A stretch of 42,761 nt of DNA. Source: Verrucomicrobiales bacterium. GTDB taxonomy: Bacteria; Verrucomicrobiota; Verrucomicrobiia; Limisphaerales; UBA11320. The position numbers were made by a program, and so were the translations under genes. A model generated the notes under the pieces. The model had not been told where the DNA came from. It ran no database searches and saw nothing but the letters and a program-made list of their open reading frames with translations. The stretch lies in assembly GCA_016793885.1 (NCBI GenBank), contig JAEUHE010000037.1:1-42761 (forward strand). The letters are read 5' to 3'. Numbering within the stretch: the first letter of the stretch is position 1; each line of letters begins with the position of its first letter. Positions 1 to 32,203 of this stretch are shown piece after piece.

Positions 1-375
1 GGGTTGTGGATTCTATGGCGTTTTCCCCAGGGTAGCTCGTTCCTCCCAACCCTGGGCTTTGAGGCGCAATCCCGTTGGGATAGGGAGGAAGCCCTCCGAA
101 CTTGTGGGTAATGCTCAGGGCACGACACCGCTTTTCCTTCAACCTACAGAAAGCCACTTCGCCCCCCCTCGAACAGGACACCCCAGCCGAGTGATGTGCG
201 GCTCCCACAACTCTAGAGTGATGGCCTGTCCCCTTGGATATCCCCCCCGATGGGCCGAGACGGCCCACACTACAACTGTAGAGTCGTCTGTGTCGGACGA
301 TTCCCTACCCCCGCGGGCAACAGGCGTCTCCGTTTCCACTCGCCAGGCCTCGCTGAAAGTTGCTATCCATGCACC
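1..375. repeat. Intergenic repeat region at left window edge
   Basis: No convincing gene is seen here. Bases 1-118 are an imperfect inverted copy of 42632-42753 at the other window end: they share the 18-base string ending at 115 (gaacttgtgggtaatgct), the block at 46-66 around ccaaccctgggctttgag, and the terminal gggttgtg. Bases 121-144 (gcacgacaccgcttttcctt region) resemble an internal segment of the 550-bp elements at 17696 and 27413. A short perfect hairpin (gggccg/cggccc) lies near 255-270. Reading frames open through this stretch are low-complexity and look spurious. Confidence 0.6.
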
Positions 376-472
376 GGAGAGTGATGGGTGCCTGGTGGTC
401 CCCACGGTCTTCAAAACCGTCGTCGGCTCGCTTTGCGGGTCGAGGTGTGTTCGATTCGCACCCTCTCCGCCA
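376..472 (+). tRNA. selC: Selenocysteine tRNA (tRNA-Sec, anticodon UCA)
   Basis: Decodes UGA as selenocysteine after charging with serine and conversion to Sec. The anticodon stem ACGGT/ACCGT (404-408 with 416-420) closes the loop CTTCAAA, so the anticodon is TCA (411-413). The D-arm has the six-pair form of bacterial tRNA-Sec: GGG (386-388) pairs with CCC and GCC with GGT around a TGGT loop, with one bulged T. The long variable arm (424-443) folds into about eight pairs closed by a TTT loop. The T-arm is GTGTG/CGCAC around TTCGATT (445-461). The acceptor strand GGAGAG pairs with CTCTCC, the discriminator is G469, and CCA is encoded (470-472). Only 12 bases separate the T-loop from G469, against 13 in the usual 8+5 fold, and T382 faces a C. 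It lies 24 bases beyond the selD stop codon and converges with it. Confidence 0.93.
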
Positions 473-495
473 ATCCACCCGTTCTCGTTCTACGT

Positions 496-2742
496 TTAAC
501 CTCCCACAACCCGCACCGTGCGGCCTTCGCTTCCGCCATCGAAATCGCCGACAACACCGATATCCACCGCGTCACCATACCCCATGTCCCGAAGTGCGTT
601 CACGGCGTCCTTGGCCACTTCGGCCGGAACCACACCCAACAACCCCCCGGCGGTCTGGGGATCAAAGAGCAACTCATAGCGTCCGGCACCTGTGCTCTCC
701 GGATGATTCACAATCTCACGACCGATTGCCCGGTTCTGCGAAGCCAACGAACTGGTCACCCCCCGAGCCAGCAATTCCAGGGCTCCCGGGAGCGCTGGAA
801 TCGCGCCCAAGTCAATCGTGACTCCGAGCGCTGAGGGCCGGCGAAGCTCCAACAAATGCCGCACCAGGCCAAACCCGCTGATATCGGTCATGGCACGCAC
901 CCCATACTCCTGCAGGCAAGCCACAGCACGCTGATTCGACAGCAGGGCGTTGGCAATCGACCGCTCTATCCACTCGCCGGTGACTAAGCCGGCCTGCTGC
1001 CCCGCGAAAACGATGCCCGTACCCAACGGCTTGGTGAGAATCAGATGATCCCCCGGCTGCCAGGAAAGATGCGCCGCTGGCGACGAGCCATCCAAGGTCC
1101 CCTGAACCATCAGGCCGATCGAGGGCTCAGATCCTTCCGCCGAATGTCCACCTATCAGCACCGCACCCGCTTGCTCCAGCTCACGATGAGCTCCCGACAC
1201 CGTTTGAAACAAGGTCTCTTCCATCTCGACCTCGCCCTCGAAAGGCAGGCTGGCGATCACCAATCCGCTATGCGGCCGTGCGCCCATGGCATACAGATCA
1301 TTGAGCGCGTGGTTGGCCGCGATGCGGCCGCACAGATACGGATCATCGAACATGAATCGGAAGTAATCGACGCTCTGCACCAAGATCTGGCCGGCCGGGA
1401 TCGCCACCACCGAGGCATCTCGCCTCTCCGCCAAGCCCACCAACACCTTCGGATCTGGCTGGGATCCCACGCGTTTGAGAACACGAGCCAACACATCGCC
1501 TCCCACCTTCCCGCCACAGCCCGCACAGCGCATCGAAGCGCTGAGCGCGGACTCGGCCAGCGGCTTGGCCGGCATCGATCCAGGTTCCAGCTCCTGGTAT
1601 TGCCTCATCCAGTTGACATCGATCGAGTTTTTCCATCGCCAAACCCAATCGCCCTCCAGGGCCAGCGAGCCGCGTGAAGCGACCGCGTGGCGGTCGCCCG
1701 TTGAGACCAAGCTGAGAAACTGACGCTGAGGCCGAAATGGCCGCAGCGGACTTCCCTCCAAGGCGCGACGCAGATTCTCCGCCAGTGGCTTGCCCTGTCG
1801 AACCGCGAACACCCCCGCCTTGGGACGCGGATAGGGAAGCACCGCCGCCACATCGCCCGCCGCAAACACATTCGCATGCGAAGTGGACTGCAGGCATTCG
1901 TTCACCGCCACGAATCCACGGTCATCCGTGGCCAATCCGGAGTCTCGCAGCCACGACTGGGCGGAAGCGGTCGTGACCCAGAACAACGCATCGAATCCAA
2001 TCTCCATTCCCGAGGCCGACCGCAACCGATCGGCCGACACCTGCACAATCCGCTGGTTCAACTCCACCCGAACCCCTCGCTCCCGCAGAACCCGTTCAAA
2101 CCGGCGTCGGACATTGGCATTGTGCGACACCAGCAACTCGGGCGATTGCGTGACCAGGGTAAATTCACAAGGAACCGCCCTTCCCGGCTTTAGACCAGCG
2201 GTTTGCTTCAACCGATGTTGCATGGAGAGCAACAGCTCAACTCCCCCGGCCCCACCTCCGACCACGCAAATGCGAAACCGATCGCGGGTCCAGGATGCGG
2301 CCCGGCGCTGTACTTCTTCCCAACGCGGTAAGAATTTCTCGATCGGTTTGACGGGAATAGCGTGTTCAGCAGCGCCTGGAATTCCCTCGAGCTGGGGAGT
2401 GGATCCAATATTGATGGATAGGACGTCGTAAGGAATCGGCGGACGATCCGCGCAGATCACGCGACGGCCGTCCAAATCCAGGCCCAGAACCCGATCCAGC
2501 ACGCATCGGACCCCGGTGGCGCGAGCAATTCTCCACAGATCCAGGTGGGTTTGATCGAAAGTATAGTGACCCGAAATCAGGCCGGGCAGCATGCCGGAGT
2601 AGGGAGTGTTGACCTGGGAGGAGACCAGCGTCAGCCGTACTCGGGACATGGGATTCATGCCCCAGAACTTCAGAACGCCAACATGCGCATGACCGCCACC
2701 CACGAGAACAAGGTTTTGGAAAGCTGGAGGCGACCGGTGCAC
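496..2742 (-). CDS. selD: FAD/NAD(P)-dependent oxidoreductase fused to selenide, water dikinase (SelD)
   Basis: The C-terminal half makes selenophosphate from selenide and ATP, the selenium donor for Sec-tRNA and selenouridine. The N-terminal half (residues about 8-385) is a type II NADH dehydrogenase-like flavoprotein: FAD motif GGGHAH at 15-20, NAD(P) motif GGGAGGVE at 162-169 and the second FAD motif AAGDVA at 294-299. The SelD half begins near 400; C406-A-G-C409-G-G-K412 matches the SelD catalytic loop, C409 and K412 aligning with E. coli C17 and K20 by eye, so it is the Cys rather than the Sec form. The start is GTG at 2742, three bases after the stop of the upstream membrane protein gene, indicating co-transcription. 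Fusions of this type are known in bacteria and some algae; the oxidoreductase's role is unproven. Confidence 0.93.
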   Translation of the reverse strand: MHRSPPAFQNLVLVGGGHAHVGVLKFWGMNPMSRVRLTLVSSQVNTPYSGMLPGLISGHYTFDQTHLDLWRIARATGVRCVLDRVLGLDLDGRRVICADRPPIPYDVLSINIGSTPQLEGIPGAAEHAIPVKPIEKFLPRWEEVQRRAASWTRDRFRICVVGGGAGGVELLLSMQHRLKQTAGLKPGRAVPCEFTLVTQSPELLVSHNANVRRRFERVLRERGVRVELNQRIVQVSADRLRSASGMEIGFDALFWVTTASAQSWLRDSGLATDDRGFVAVNECLQSTSHANVFAAGDVAAVLPYPRPKAGVFAVRQGKPLAENLRRALEGSPLRPFRPQRQFLSLVSTGDRHAVASRGSLALEGDWVWRWKNSIDVNWMRQYQELEPGSMPAKPLAESALSASMRCAGCGGKVGGDVLARVLKRVGSQPDPKVLVGLAERRDASVVAIPAGQILVQSVDYFRFMFDDPYLCGRIAANHALNDLYAMGARPHSGLVIASLPFEGEVEMEETLFQTVSGAHRELEQAGAVLIGGHSAEGSEPSIGLMVQGTLDGSSPAAHLSWQPGDHLILTKPLGTGIVFAGQQAGLVTGEWIERSIANALLSNQRAVACLQEYGVRAMTDISGFGLVRHLLELRRPSALGVTIDLGAIPALPGALELLARGVTSSLASQNRAIGREIVNHPESTGAGRYELLFDPQTAGGLLGVVPAEVAKDAVNALRDMGYGDAVDIGVVGDFDGGSEGRTVRVVGG

Positions 2743-13957: not shown

Positions 13958-13969
13958 ATGTGGGGAGTT

Positions 13970-14155
13970 AGGTGGTAGGTGGTAGGTGGTAGGTGGTAGG
14001 CGGTAGGTGGTAGGGTCACTCATCACTCATCACTCATCACTCATCCCTCGTCACTCGTCACTCATCCCTCGTCACTCATCCCTCGTCACTCGTCACTCGT
14101 CACTCATCACTCATCACTCATCACTCATCACTCCTCACTCCTCACTCCTCACTCC
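13970..14155. repeat. Solo heptanucleotide arrays (AGGTGGT)6 and (TCACTCR)20
   Basis: Six units of AGGTGGT (13970-14011, one variant AGGCGGT) are followed directly by twenty 7-base units (14016-14155). The units are TCACTCA, TCACTCG, TCCCTCG or TCACTCC in runs. The same two heptamers in the same order form the left end of the elements at 17696 and 27413, but here the ~350-base core and right end are missing. The array fills the 235-base gap between the second permease and purU. Because seven is not a multiple of three, all frames read as a seven-residue periodic peptide, so the open frame running into purU is not genuine coding sequence. Confidence 0.92.
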
Positions 14156-17695: not shown

Positions 17696-18243
17696 TGAGC
17701 GGAGGTGGTAGGTGGTAGGTGGCAGGTGACCCACTCGTCACTCGTCACTCGTCACTCGTCACTCGTCACTCTTCACTCGATTGCCAGGTGAGGCCCCGAC
17801 AAAGAAAGTTCACGCATACGCAACGCTTCCCCCACTATGGACCGCGGTGGCACGACACCGCTGTTCCTTCACGCCACCTCCCCCCCCGGCGACGCACACC
17901 CCCACAGGGGACGCCTCTAAGCCACCCCGTCACGTGCAGGAAAAGCGGAGACGTGTCTCCGCAGTCCATAAGCGCCCCCTTCCACCTTCCTGAGCTTCGT
18001 GCCTTAGTGAGAAACATTCAGGCGCTTCTCCGCCCAGGCCTTCTCTGTGACCTCGGCGGACTCTGTGTGAAAAACCCGGGAATCGGAGCGGATGGCGAGG
18101 AATCGATTACGATTACGAATACGATTACGACAGCCGAGTGACGAGTGAGGAGACCCTGCCAACGGTCAACTGACCACTGCCAACGGTCAACGGACACTAC
18201 CACGGTCAACGGATCCACCTACCTACCACCCAACACCTCCGCT
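17696..18243. mobile_element. Heptamer-bounded intergenic element, copy A (~550 bp)
   Basis: The left end reads tgagcggaggtggtagg, further AGGTGGT units, then seven TCACTCG-type units (17731-17779). A ~355-base core (17780-18134) follows, then two CGAGTGA units (18135-18148), a caacggtcaac-rich stretch, and ends in ctaccaccc...cacctccgct. Read on the other strand the right end repeats the left end (agcggaggtg, GGTAGGT units, TCACTCG units), so the whole is flanked by long inverted terminal arrays. The core contains the perfect inverted repeat gcggaga-cgtg-tctccgc (17945-17962). Copy B at 27413 matches closely, with about three differences over the 160 bases from 17960. No transposase is encoded; it resembles a non-autonomous element or interspersed palindromic unit. 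This is an inference from structure. Confidence 0.7.
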
Positions 18244-27415: not shown

Positions 27416-27970
27416 GCGGAGGTGGTAGGGTCTCGTCACTCGTCACTCGTCACTCGTCACTCGTCACTCGTCACTCGTCACTCGTCACTCGTCACTCGAT
27501 TGCCAAGTGTCAGGCCCTGACAAGGAAAGTTCACGCACACGCAACGCTTGCCCCACTATGGACCGCGGTGGCACGACACCGCTGTTCCTTCACGCCACCT
27601 CAACCCCAGCGACGCACCCCACCACAGAGAACGCCCCTCAGCCACCCCGTCGCGTGCAGGAAAAGCGGAGACGTGTCTCCGCAGTCCATAAGCGCCCCCC
27701 TCCACCTTCCTGAGCTTCGTGCCTTAGTGAGAAACATTCAGGCGCTTCTCCGCTCAAGCCTTCTCTGTGACCTCGGCGGACTCTGTGTGAAAAACCCGGG
27801 AATCGGAGCGGATGGCGAGGAATCGATTACGATTACGACAGCCGAGTGACGAGTGACGAGTGACGAGTGACGAGTGACGAGTGGCGAGTGAAGAGTGAGG
27901 AGACCCTGCCAACGGACAACTGACCACTGCCAACGGTCAACGGACACTACCACCTACCACCTACCCCGCC
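27413..27970. mobile_element. Heptamer-bounded intergenic element, copy B (~555 bp)
   Basis: Second copy of the element at 17696. The left end tgagcggaggtggtagg begins at the recG stop codon. Nine perfect TCACTCG units run from 27436 to 27498, the core from 27499 to 27842, then eight CGAGTGA-type units (27843-27898), a caacggtcaac stretch and CTACCAC units to about 27966. The internal inverted repeat gcggaga-cgtg-tctccgc is at 27665-27682. Unit counts differ from copy A (9 and 8 against 7 and 2) and a 12-base cgatta-type repeat unit present in A is absent. An open frame of about 145 codons crosses both copies but is repeat-derived. Bases 27971-28021 hold nothing recognisable and must contain the promoter of the next gene. 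Confidence 0.7.
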
Positions 27971-30751: not shown

Positions 30752-32203
30752 ATGAATTTCAACCACTCTGCATCTCTAAACCGACGAGAGTTTCTCTCCC
30801 GGAATGCCATGGGCGTTGGCGGGGTGGCCTTGGCCTGGCTGCTGGGCGACAACAATTTGCTGGCGACCCCCGCGTCCGTGCCTCGCCGGCCGCAAAGCTT
30901 TGACCTGACTCCAAAACCACCGTCCTTCCAGCCCACCGCCCGAGCGATGATCTCGCTCTTCATGCACGGCGGACCGAGTCATGTCGACTTGCTCGATCCC
31001 AAGCCGGAGCTGACTCGAATGAGCGGCCAGGATTATAACGGCGAAGTCACTTTCAGCTTCGTCAATCGGGCCAGCAAGAAGCTCATGGGCAGTCCTTGGA
31101 AGTTCAAGCGATACGGCCAAAGCGGCATCGAGGTCAGCGAGCTTCTGCCTCACTTCTCCGAGATCGTCGACGATGTCTGCGTGATTCGGTCCATGCATAC
31201 GGACATCAACGGTCATGAGCCGTCAATCTGGTACATGCATACGGGCAAGTCGCAGCCCGGACGCCCCCACCTCGGCTCCTGGCTGACCTACGGTCTGGGC
31301 TCCGAGAACCGCAACTTGCCCGCCTACGTGGTCATGACCGACCCCGGTGGACATCCGGTCGACGGCGTGCGCAACTGGTCGAACGGTTGGATGCCTCCAC
31401 TCTTCCAAGGAACGGTCGTTCGCCCCACCGAACCACGCATTCTCAACCTGGAACCTCCCTCGCATCTAAAGGGTGAGCTCCAACGGCAGAACCTGGACTT
31501 CTTGCGCAGCCTCAATCGCGATCACCTGGCACGGCATCCCGGCGAGGCTGACCTGGAAGCACGCATCGCCAGCTATGAACTGGCTGCGGCCATGCAAACG
31601 ACCGCCAAGGAAGCCCTCGACCTAAGCGGCGAGAGCGAAGCTACCAAGAAACTCTACGGACTCGACAATCCCGCCTGTCGCGAATACGGCACCCGCTGCC
31701 TGATCGCCCGCCGACTCGTGGAGCGCGGCGTGCGCTTCGTGCAGCTCTTCATCAACGGACAGATCTGGGACAACCACGAAAACATAGGCAAGTCCCTGCC
31801 CGATTGCTGCCGCAAAACCGACCAACCCTCTGCCGCCCTGGTCAAGGATCTGAAAGCCCGCGGTCTTTTGGATACCACCCTGGTTCACTGGGGCGGCGAG
31901 ATCGGACGCCTGCCCGTCACCGAGAACCATGGGGCGGCCGAGAAAGCGGGACGCGATCACAATGGCCAGGGGTTCAGCTCCTGGCTGGCCGGGGGAGGAA
32001 TCAAGGGCGGGATGACCTACGGTGAGACCGATGAGTTTGGCCACAAGGCCGTGGTCAATCCCGTGAGCCCCGTCGATTATCATGCCACCCTCACCCACCT
32101 TTTCGGCATCGATCATCAGAAACTGATTTACCATCACAACGGCACCGAACAGCGCCTCACCGATGGAAAGGCCGCGCGAGTCGTCCGAGAAATCTTGAGG
32201 TAG
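30752..32203 (+). CDS. DUF1501 domain-containing protein (Tat-exported)
   Basis: Periplasmic protein of a family with an alkaline phosphatase/sulfatase-like fold and no known substrate. The N-terminus has a Tat signal: twin arginine in NRREFLSR (residues 10-17), then hydrophobic GVGGVALAWLLG. Family landmarks: SLFMHGGPSHVDLLDPKPEL (about 70-88), GQSGIEVSELLPHFSEI, VRSMHTD, HPDYW-like [38 protein letters not shown], and LVHWGGEIGRLP with the late histidine motif DHNGQGFSSWLAGGGIKGG. It is 483 residues, normal for the family, and translationally close to the upstream DUF1549/1553 gene (18-base gap). Confidence 0.92.
   Translation: MNFNHSASLNRREFLSRNAMGVGGVALAWLLGDNNLLATPASVPRRPQSFDLTPKPPSFQPTARAMISLFMHGGPSHVDLLDPKPELTRMSGQDYNGEVTFSFVNRASKKLMGSPWKFKRYGQSGIEVSELLPHFSEIVDDVCVIRSMHTDINGHEPSIWYMHTGKSQPGRPHLGSWLTYGLGSENRNLPAYVVMTDPGGHPVDGVRNWSNGWMPPLFQGTVVRPTEPRILNLEPPSHLKGELQRQNLDFLRSLNRDHLARHPGEADLEARIASYELAAAMQTTAKEALDLSGESEATKKLYGLDNPACREYGTRCLIARRLVERGVRFVQLFINGQIWDNHENIGKSLPDCCRKTDQPSAALVKDLKARGLLDTTLVHWGGEIGRLPVTENHGAAEKAGRDHNGQGFSSWLAGGGIKGGMTYGETDEFGHKAVVNPVSPVDYHATLTHLFGIDHQKLIYHHNGTEQRLTDGKAARVVREILR

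Follow-up and report, generated by a model that had tools for sequence, protein, structure and literature searches.

Close to the start of the analysed window, i.e., the whole stretch of 42,761 nucleotides from a Verrucomicrobiales bacterium, lies selC, a gene for selenocysteine tRNA (Table 1). A check with tRNA-Sec models, proposed in the initial annotation, was made with ARAGORN, which calls a tRNA-SeC with the anticodon TCA at 376-472, and with the Rfam covariance model RF01852, which aligns to 375-469 with 67.4 bits (gathering score 47); both match selC. In the whole source genome (8.7 Mb, 95.7% complete) this gene is the single match of RF01852 above the cut-off, the seven weaker ones being ordinary tRNAs. 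The hallmarks of tRNA-Sec are present, i.e., UCA, G73, a long variable arm and a six-pair D-stem (one bulge) with a four-base loop. Read as RNA, positions 376-385 are GGAGAG UGAU, ahead of the D-arm, and at the 3′ end, read directly, the T-loop TTCGATT (450-456) is followed by CGCACCCTCTCC at 457-468, by G469 and by CCA. A scan of window positions 200-700 for a promoter or terminator found none. The gene converging on selC is also the neighbour of selC in a same-genus relative (L028). The host tRNA-Ser(GCU) and tRNA-Ser(GGA) (L003, L007) have the same six acceptor pairs GGAGAG/CTCTCC and the same arm length as tRNA-Sec, and along acceptor positions 1-7 the sole difference is position 7, where U faces C in tRNA-Sec and an A-U pair stands in tRNA-Ser.

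Table 1. The selC locus in the window: features, coordinates and basis of assignment.
Feature	Position	Strand	Basis
selC, tRNA-Sec(UCA), encoded CCA 470-472, G73 = G469	376..472	+	ARAGORN, Rfam, direct reading
Acceptor 5′ strand GGAGAG, six pairs with 463-468	376..381	+	109/109, count imposed by search and filter
U7 G8 A9 U10, position 7 unpaired	382..385	+	109 relatives compared
D-arm 386-388/400-402 and 390-392/397-399, loop UGGU 393-396, bulged U389	386..402	+	relatives
Anticodon arm 404-408/416-420 and C403-G422, bulged C421 (like 43a), UCA 411-413	403..422	+	relatives
Long variable arm, nine pairs, no unpaired base ahead of G444	423..443	+	free fold
T-arm 444-449/457-462 (six pairs in the 6+6 register), loop 450-456	444..462	+	109 relatives compared
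Acceptor 3′ strand CTCTCC	463..468	+	direct reading, relatives
NADH-dehydrogenase-like/SelD fusion, 748 aa, Cys form (MRCAGCGGK), converging on selC	496..2742	-	Pfam Pyr_redox_2, AIRS, AIRS_C

Elsewhere in the window, tandem arrays of 7-base units occupy 13969-14154, 17732-17779, 27432-27498 and 27843-27902, and one of these arrays falls within the start called for a formyl-transferase ORF (14007), whose real start is probably further in. ARAGORN also calls a tRNA-Pro(TGG) at 31364-31441 of the minus strand, antisense within a long ORF (30752-32203); since Rfam did not report it, it is probably a false positive.

The canonical 13-pair acceptor plus T arm (8+5) is not found in selC. The initial annotation counted 12 bases, not 13, between the T-loop and the discriminator base G469, which direct reading confirms, and the gene thus has the 12 bases from T-loop to G73 that define tRNA-Sec with a 12 bp AT-stem. 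Is this a real lineage variant or a one-base deletion, as the initial annotation asked? A search of the own order (146 genomes, source and relatives) gave 67 matches at E 1e-9 in 65 genomes, from which 50 were examined (45 tRNA-Sec by script, L024 by eye and four tRNA-Ser by eye) and 17 low-scoring ones left out. Four of the 50 are tRNA-Ser(UGA), and the 46 tRNA-Sec, source included, divide into 34 with a 12-base arm starting with GGAGAG and 12 with a 13-base arm (one by eye). In the phylum-wide sample 31 of 387 genomes had a match; 29 loci (L186-L214) were fetched for it, with one of the 31 matches left out, and the 24 tRNA-Sec examined comprise eight of this 12-base type, three of a different 12-base type (L210 recognised by eye, the others by script) and 13 whose arm has 13 bases (one of them by eye), five further loci being tRNA-Ser. 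The 12-base arm in 34 of 46 own-order and 8 of 24 phylum-wide tRNA-Sec genes bears out a real lineage variant, and its conservation across relatives excludes chance or error.

Public genomes were also scanned with a selC pattern that is limited to the 5′ portion, as far as the anticodon loop, and ignores the 3′ strand, which gave at least 119 stretches and at least 121 sites. Among the matches listed, 119 sites have a readable T-loop, with 12 bases in 115 and 13 in none; in two of 121 (L072, L075) no T-loop was found. The four sites not scored as 12 (two of L105, L107, L168) lie at a contig end or have a changed acceptor base, and L107 has 12 by eye. The labels of the stretches listed are Verrucomicrobiota in 107 of 119 (by eye), including Roseibacillus persicicus KCTC 12988, and Acidobacteriota, Spirochaetaceae, Phycisphaerales, Mycobacterium or "bacterium" in the others, some of which may be mis-binned. 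Two 12-base selC copies stand on one contig in L153, and likewise in L105, where the 3.8-kb contig may represent an assembly repeat.

Two phyla, labelled Spirochaetota and Acidobacteriota, were added, the centre genomes being those of L142 and L157. In Acidobacteriota 13 bases were counted in 70 of 70 matches taken from the higher-scoring portion of a list ordered and cut by score, a selection that favours 13-base genes, and the tRNA-Sec of the centre genome is itself of the 12-base type. In Spirochaetota 50 of 85 matches were fetched and 46 parsed, with 12 bases in 44 by script and 45 by eye; L356 was scored 13 and has 12 by eye, and L352 is a plain 7+5 tRNA. The one-base deletion is thus refuted by the relatives as an artefact, yet it is plausible as an old fixed deletion of the 3′ strand, since the 5′ strand keeps the same ten bases to the D-stem as in 13-base relatives (by eye).

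The pairing of the 12 bases was followed through 109 distinct 12-base sequences, selected for GGAGAG and for an acceptor that pairs at the 12-base place, with one L105 site skipped; the complete acceptor pairing in this set is therefore imposed, GGAGAG by the search and the pairing by the filter. In the initial annotation the fold had to be 7+5 or 8+4, with T382 facing a C in either. The latter part holds, as C462 stands opposite T382 in both, while the choice itself was too narrow, since 8+4 is contradicted and a third register, 6+6, scores best. Position 7 pairs with C462 in none of 109 sequences (U-C 108, A-C 1), and the pair 383:461, which 8+4 needs as well, is possible in 100, while the competing fifth T pair 445:461 is kept in 108 (G-C 74, G-U 26, A-U 7, C-G 1; one T-C). 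These counts at 382:462 and 445:461 rule out 8+4. The seven regular acceptor pairs and shortened linker of the Cloacimonetes-type 7+5 are likewise absent, position 7 being paired in 0 of 109. The weakest pairs of the T-stem are 446:460 (90 of 109) and 447:459 (99 of 109), with failures that are mostly U-U. Two adjacent U-U mismatches (GGUUGG/CCUUCC) occur in L068, L094, L106, L116 and others, i.e., in some Akkermansiaceae and other Verrucomicrobiales.

Because the 3′ strand is one base shorter, U382 would be left unpaired at the acceptor/T junction, and the partner of C462 would be G444 in a 6+6 fold and G383 in a 7+5 fold with bulged U382. Nearest-neighbour energies are lowest for 6+6 in 108 of 109 sequences, and the free minimum-energy fold of the window selC is 6+6, with T382 unpaired without a mismatch. 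The pair 444:462 is G-C in 109 of 109, but this does not prove it, since the 13-base tRNAs have the same constant G444 (all 69 distinct sequences from Acidobacteriota), although in most of them the sixth base of the 3′ strand is something other than C. The same invariance, at a place where G444 is mostly unable to pair, speaks for the bulged 7+5, which is drawn for other 12-bp tRNA-Sec with acceptor bulges elsewhere, as do the possible G383-C462 pair in 101 of 109 sequences and a G-C to A-U exchange beside a bulge in some Spirochaetota (by eye). However, the other eight sequences are without G383 and keep C462 unchanged, so that 6+6 is the sole possible register of the two in them, and the energies also count against the bulge. 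The bulged 7+5 may accordingly be given somewhat less than even odds, and 6+6 appears favoured, mainly by energy, though covariation does not settle between them. A 13th pair could also be restored by C375-G469, as the 9+4 model of Rfam aligns it, but in the 109 sequences any of the four bases can precede the tRNA (C 51, T 23, A 18, G 17), hence this is not a conserved extra pair, and GCCA follows in this gene; such a restoration is very improbable.

The initial annotation described the rest of the molecule as standard, and this is right for the six-pair D-stem, the long variable arm and UCA, but not for the bulged U389 and C421. The D-stem pairs are each kept in 108 or 109 of 109 relatives, with T (108) or C (1) at bulge 389 and with G-C, C-G and A-U exchanging at 387:401. 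When the window selC is folded freely and alone, the D-stem shifts to the adjacent register, in which U389 and C400 are mismatched; the outer four positions of this register pair in 102, 91, 95 and 0 of 109 (0 at 389:400). In the anticodon arm 403:422 pairs in 109 of 109 and 403:421 in 1 of 109, and the C421 bulge is absent from the free fold. The D-stem and anticodon-stem bulges, a common but not universal trait of 12 bp tRNA-Sec, are thus seen through the 109 relatives and not in the single free fold. The D-stem bulge is found in some 13-base relatives as well, e.g., L012 (by eye).

The source genome encodes SelA, SelB and SelD, with selA and selB on a contig separate from that of selC. In many relatives sel genes stand directly downstream. 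Among 119 named 12-base loci selC is followed on the same strand by selD, selA and selB in 37; selD and selA are present in 57 (20 beyond the 37) and selD in 70 (13 alone), and in 49 no same-strand sel gene occurs downstream within the available stretch. With source proteins as queries, 178 loci of 1.6 to 8 kb (both arm classes, a few tRNA-Ser loci, some contigs twice) gave SelD in 92, SelA in 82 and SelB in 38, the SelB of L211 being doubtful. The SelD downstream of selC has in many relatives an in-frame TGA, which falls at what we take to be the Sec/Cys position of this protein (CAG-U-ASK). The SelD motif was matched 59 times in its U form and 32 times in its Cys form (two Cys matches being in 13-base loci), counted over the 178 loci and 20 short ones, with duplicates kept and with motifs written after inspection of the sequences. 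In the source genome SelD is the Cys form, a narrow search found no selenoprotein, and the matches to formate dehydrogenase have no internal stop. A read-through scan of the window and the selAB contig gave no selenoprotein candidate among the 14 matches shown: those gene-like on both sides are gene-gene junctions and the remainder looked antisense to genes. In L111, L169, L173 and L182 selA and selB are separated by a gene that codes for about 330 aa, begins like a signal peptide (by eye) and has TGA at its ends only.

Do the partner proteins follow the arm length? In a SelA tree of 68 rows 42 12-base rows are on one side (SH-aLRT 99), opposite to 23 13-base and three plain 7+5 rows, and in a SelB tree of 53 rows 30 12-base rows are separated from 20 13-base and three plain 7+5 rows (SH-aLRT 100). 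When the two phyla were added, a quick SelB tree of 67 rows kept 33 of 33 12-base rows together (SH-aLRT 98), and in a careful tree of 55 rows 28 of 28 stay together (bootstrap/SH-aLRT 100/98; 100% of 200 bootstrap trees), with genomes from three phyla on the 12-base side of SelB. Four plain 7+5 genomes of two phyla have their own branch there (100/100), and since the plain 7+5 rows fall among the 13-base SelB rows, the latter do not make one branch. The careful SelA tree, with 53 rows, holds 31 of 31 12-base rows together (96/93; 94% of 200 bootstrap trees). The trees of both proteins, rooted at midpoint, separate the arm-length classes with two changes, the fewest possible. An AU test rejected holding the 27 Verrucomicrobiota SelB of 12- and 13-base classes together (p 1e-4, cost 245 log-likelihood units); the test left three plain 7+5 rows outside, and the group was defined only once the tree was known. 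Families are not cleanly split, as family f16 has both 12-base (G074, G141) and 13-base (G019, G103, G123) members, and the SelA fragment L185, taken as that of G141, is on the 12-base side.

The short L251 was left out of the SelB trees; the 55-row tree is without L242, L227, L241, L230, L236, L250, L431, L437, L439 and 17 of 24 named 12-base rows, and the 67-row tree keeps those rows except 14 named ones and gives the same split. The 53-row SelA tree is without L255, L266, L254, L267, L258, L260 and 29 of 38 named rows, with further SelA pieces unused. Outside the trees stand the SelB of G359 and G390, the second SelB of G313, and the SelA of G390, G382 and G493; a strong SelB match is missing in 2 of 34 and 2 of 30 genomes, a strong SelA match in 1 of 34. 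The split of SelA and SelB by arm length implies that in these samples the tRNA arm and both partners are inherited as a set. The suggestion of the initial annotation that the short arm affects recognition by SelA, SelB or EF-Tu gains indirect support, as the SelA and SelB of 12-base genomes are on their own branch; such co-segregation shows co-inheritance, not recognition. Four columns that separate 12-base from 13-base SelB were picked post hoc from a scan of all columns. At one of them, position 103, every 12-base row (44 of 44) has W, and 27 of the 29 13-base rows have I or V; the solved chains 5lzb (E. coli) and 4zu9 have V and I there, respectively. W103 is a possible trace of adaptation to the 12-base tRNA, to be taken as a lead only.

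The reading that best joins these data, to which a probability of about 0.88 may be given, is that selC encodes a functional tRNA-Sec with a 12-pair coaxial acceptor-T arm and with co-adapted SelA and SelB. Compared with 8+5, such tRNA has ten bases ahead of the D-stem, as usual, and one base fewer in the 3′ strand; it would be charged with serine by SerRS through G73 and the long variable arm, converted to Sec-tRNA by SelA of the matching lineage and brought to UGA by SelB of the matching lineage, with recognition adjusted to the shorter arm, while EF-Tu would be expected to reject it. Counting against a functional tRNA are the lack of a found selenoprotein in the source genome, the 49 of 119 loci without a downstream sel gene, and the 8-bp acceptor reported as the main E. 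coli SelB determinant in a passage of a review (PMC7609411). A base lost near 461-463 by sequencing or assembly error, with a true gene of 8+5, is scarcely credible: there is a single contig only, but 33 other own-order tRNA-Sec genes of 46 share the 12-base arm, as do 115 of 119 readable public-genome sites among the matches listed. Many relatives share the arm, and it goes with a separate lineage of partner proteins, so that the most likely explanation is a working variant rather than such an error. It is highly improbable, too, that selC is an allo-tRNA or a selC*-type suppressor (serine or cysteine) instead of a Sec tRNA; a 12-pair arm occurs among allo-tRNAs and a UCA anticodon among some selC*, yet G73 stands here in place of the U73 of selC*, the 8+4 register is contradicted, and many relatives have selD, selA and selB downstream and UGA in SelD.

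More weight is due to the rival that arm length and SelA/SelB clade match through shared ancestry and transfer of the whole cassette, with no functional matching. The 37 of 119 named 12-base loci with selC, selD, selA and selB in a row are in keeping with it, whereas the source selC and selAB are on separate contigs and still match, and no mismatch occurs among the tree rows, from which three SelB (those of G359 and G390 and a further one of G313) are absent; transfer without matching is therefore possible, though clearly short of an even chance. The functional reading may be extended to at least two co-inherited, mutually adapted Sec-decoding modules, with SelA and SelB for a 13-pair and for a 12-pair bulged (perhaps 6+6) tRNA-Sec, in which the modules, and not host phylogeny, would set the tRNA type and the second-lineage SelB would work without a 13-pair length ruler; the chances of this extended proposal are about evenly balanced.

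The extra acceptor pair is, according to the review, the usual reason why SelB takes tRNA-Sec and EF-Tu does not, with the longer acceptor stem weakening EF-Tu binding about 100-fold (PMC7609411, in the passages on these factors). Here is a widespread family without this pair, the SelA and SelB of which form, in the rows examined, a separate lineage across three phyla. Its natural tRNA/SelB pairs make the question of SelB discrimination testable, and they may yield naturally orthogonal tRNA-Sec/SelB sets for selenoprotein engineering. Gene finding is affected as well, since 13-pair models misplace G73 in 12-base genes, as stated in PMC5330540 and as seen in the Rfam alignment of selC here.

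How does this gene compare with known systems? With the canonical 8+5 tRNA-Sec it has in common G73, UCA, the six-pair D-stem with a four-base loop and the long variable arm, and it differs by one 3′-strand base fewer and by the D-stem and anticodon-stem bulges. The initial annotation had likened it to allo-tRNAs, a comparison that does not stand beyond the 12-pair arm, as the literature presents allo-tRNAs as serine isoacceptors with an 8/4 or 9/3 arm (PMC7609411, passage on allo-tRNAs) and the selC family is often in a Sec operon. The 7/5 tRNA-Sec of Epsilonproteobacteria, argued from covariation in the relevant passages of PMC4607533, also has a 12-pair arm and belongs to a different lineage. 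The Cloacimonetes type, as described in part of PMC5330540, has 12 pairs as here, but a shorter linker and a clean seventh pair. A third class, clean 7+5 and similar to the Cloacimonetes type, is found in L203, L208, L352 (by eye) and probably L210, i.e., in Verrucomicrobiota and Spirochaetota, and its SelB (genomes of L203, L208 and L352, and G200 of L210) forms one third branch across the two phyla.

The closest match is the bacterial tRNA-Sec with a 12 bp AT-stem, already known from Santesmasses et al. (2017; PMC5330540), where Spirochaetes are named among the carriers. As in selC here, 12 bases precede G73 and there is linkage to sel genes; bulges are described there, in the passages on structure, in the acceptor stem, the D-stem (13a, Clostridiales) and the anticodon stem (43a), the latter two being present here, while the acceptor bulges at 3a, 4a, 5a and 7a compare with an unpaired base after pair six in selC. 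The main text of PMC5330540 has 0 occurrences of Verrucomicrobiota, and its main-text passages hold no split of SelA and SelB by arm length; in the open-licence PMC literature (including PMC13188914), as far as its retrievable passages extend, neither a Verrucomicrobiota 12-base tRNA-Sec nor such a split is reported. Since 12-pair bacterial tRNA-Sec is already described in PMC5330540 and PMC4607533, selC is a further example, in a phylum new relative to the main text of PMC5330540, and what raises its interest is the observed co-segregation of the 12-base arm with SelA and SelB lineages.
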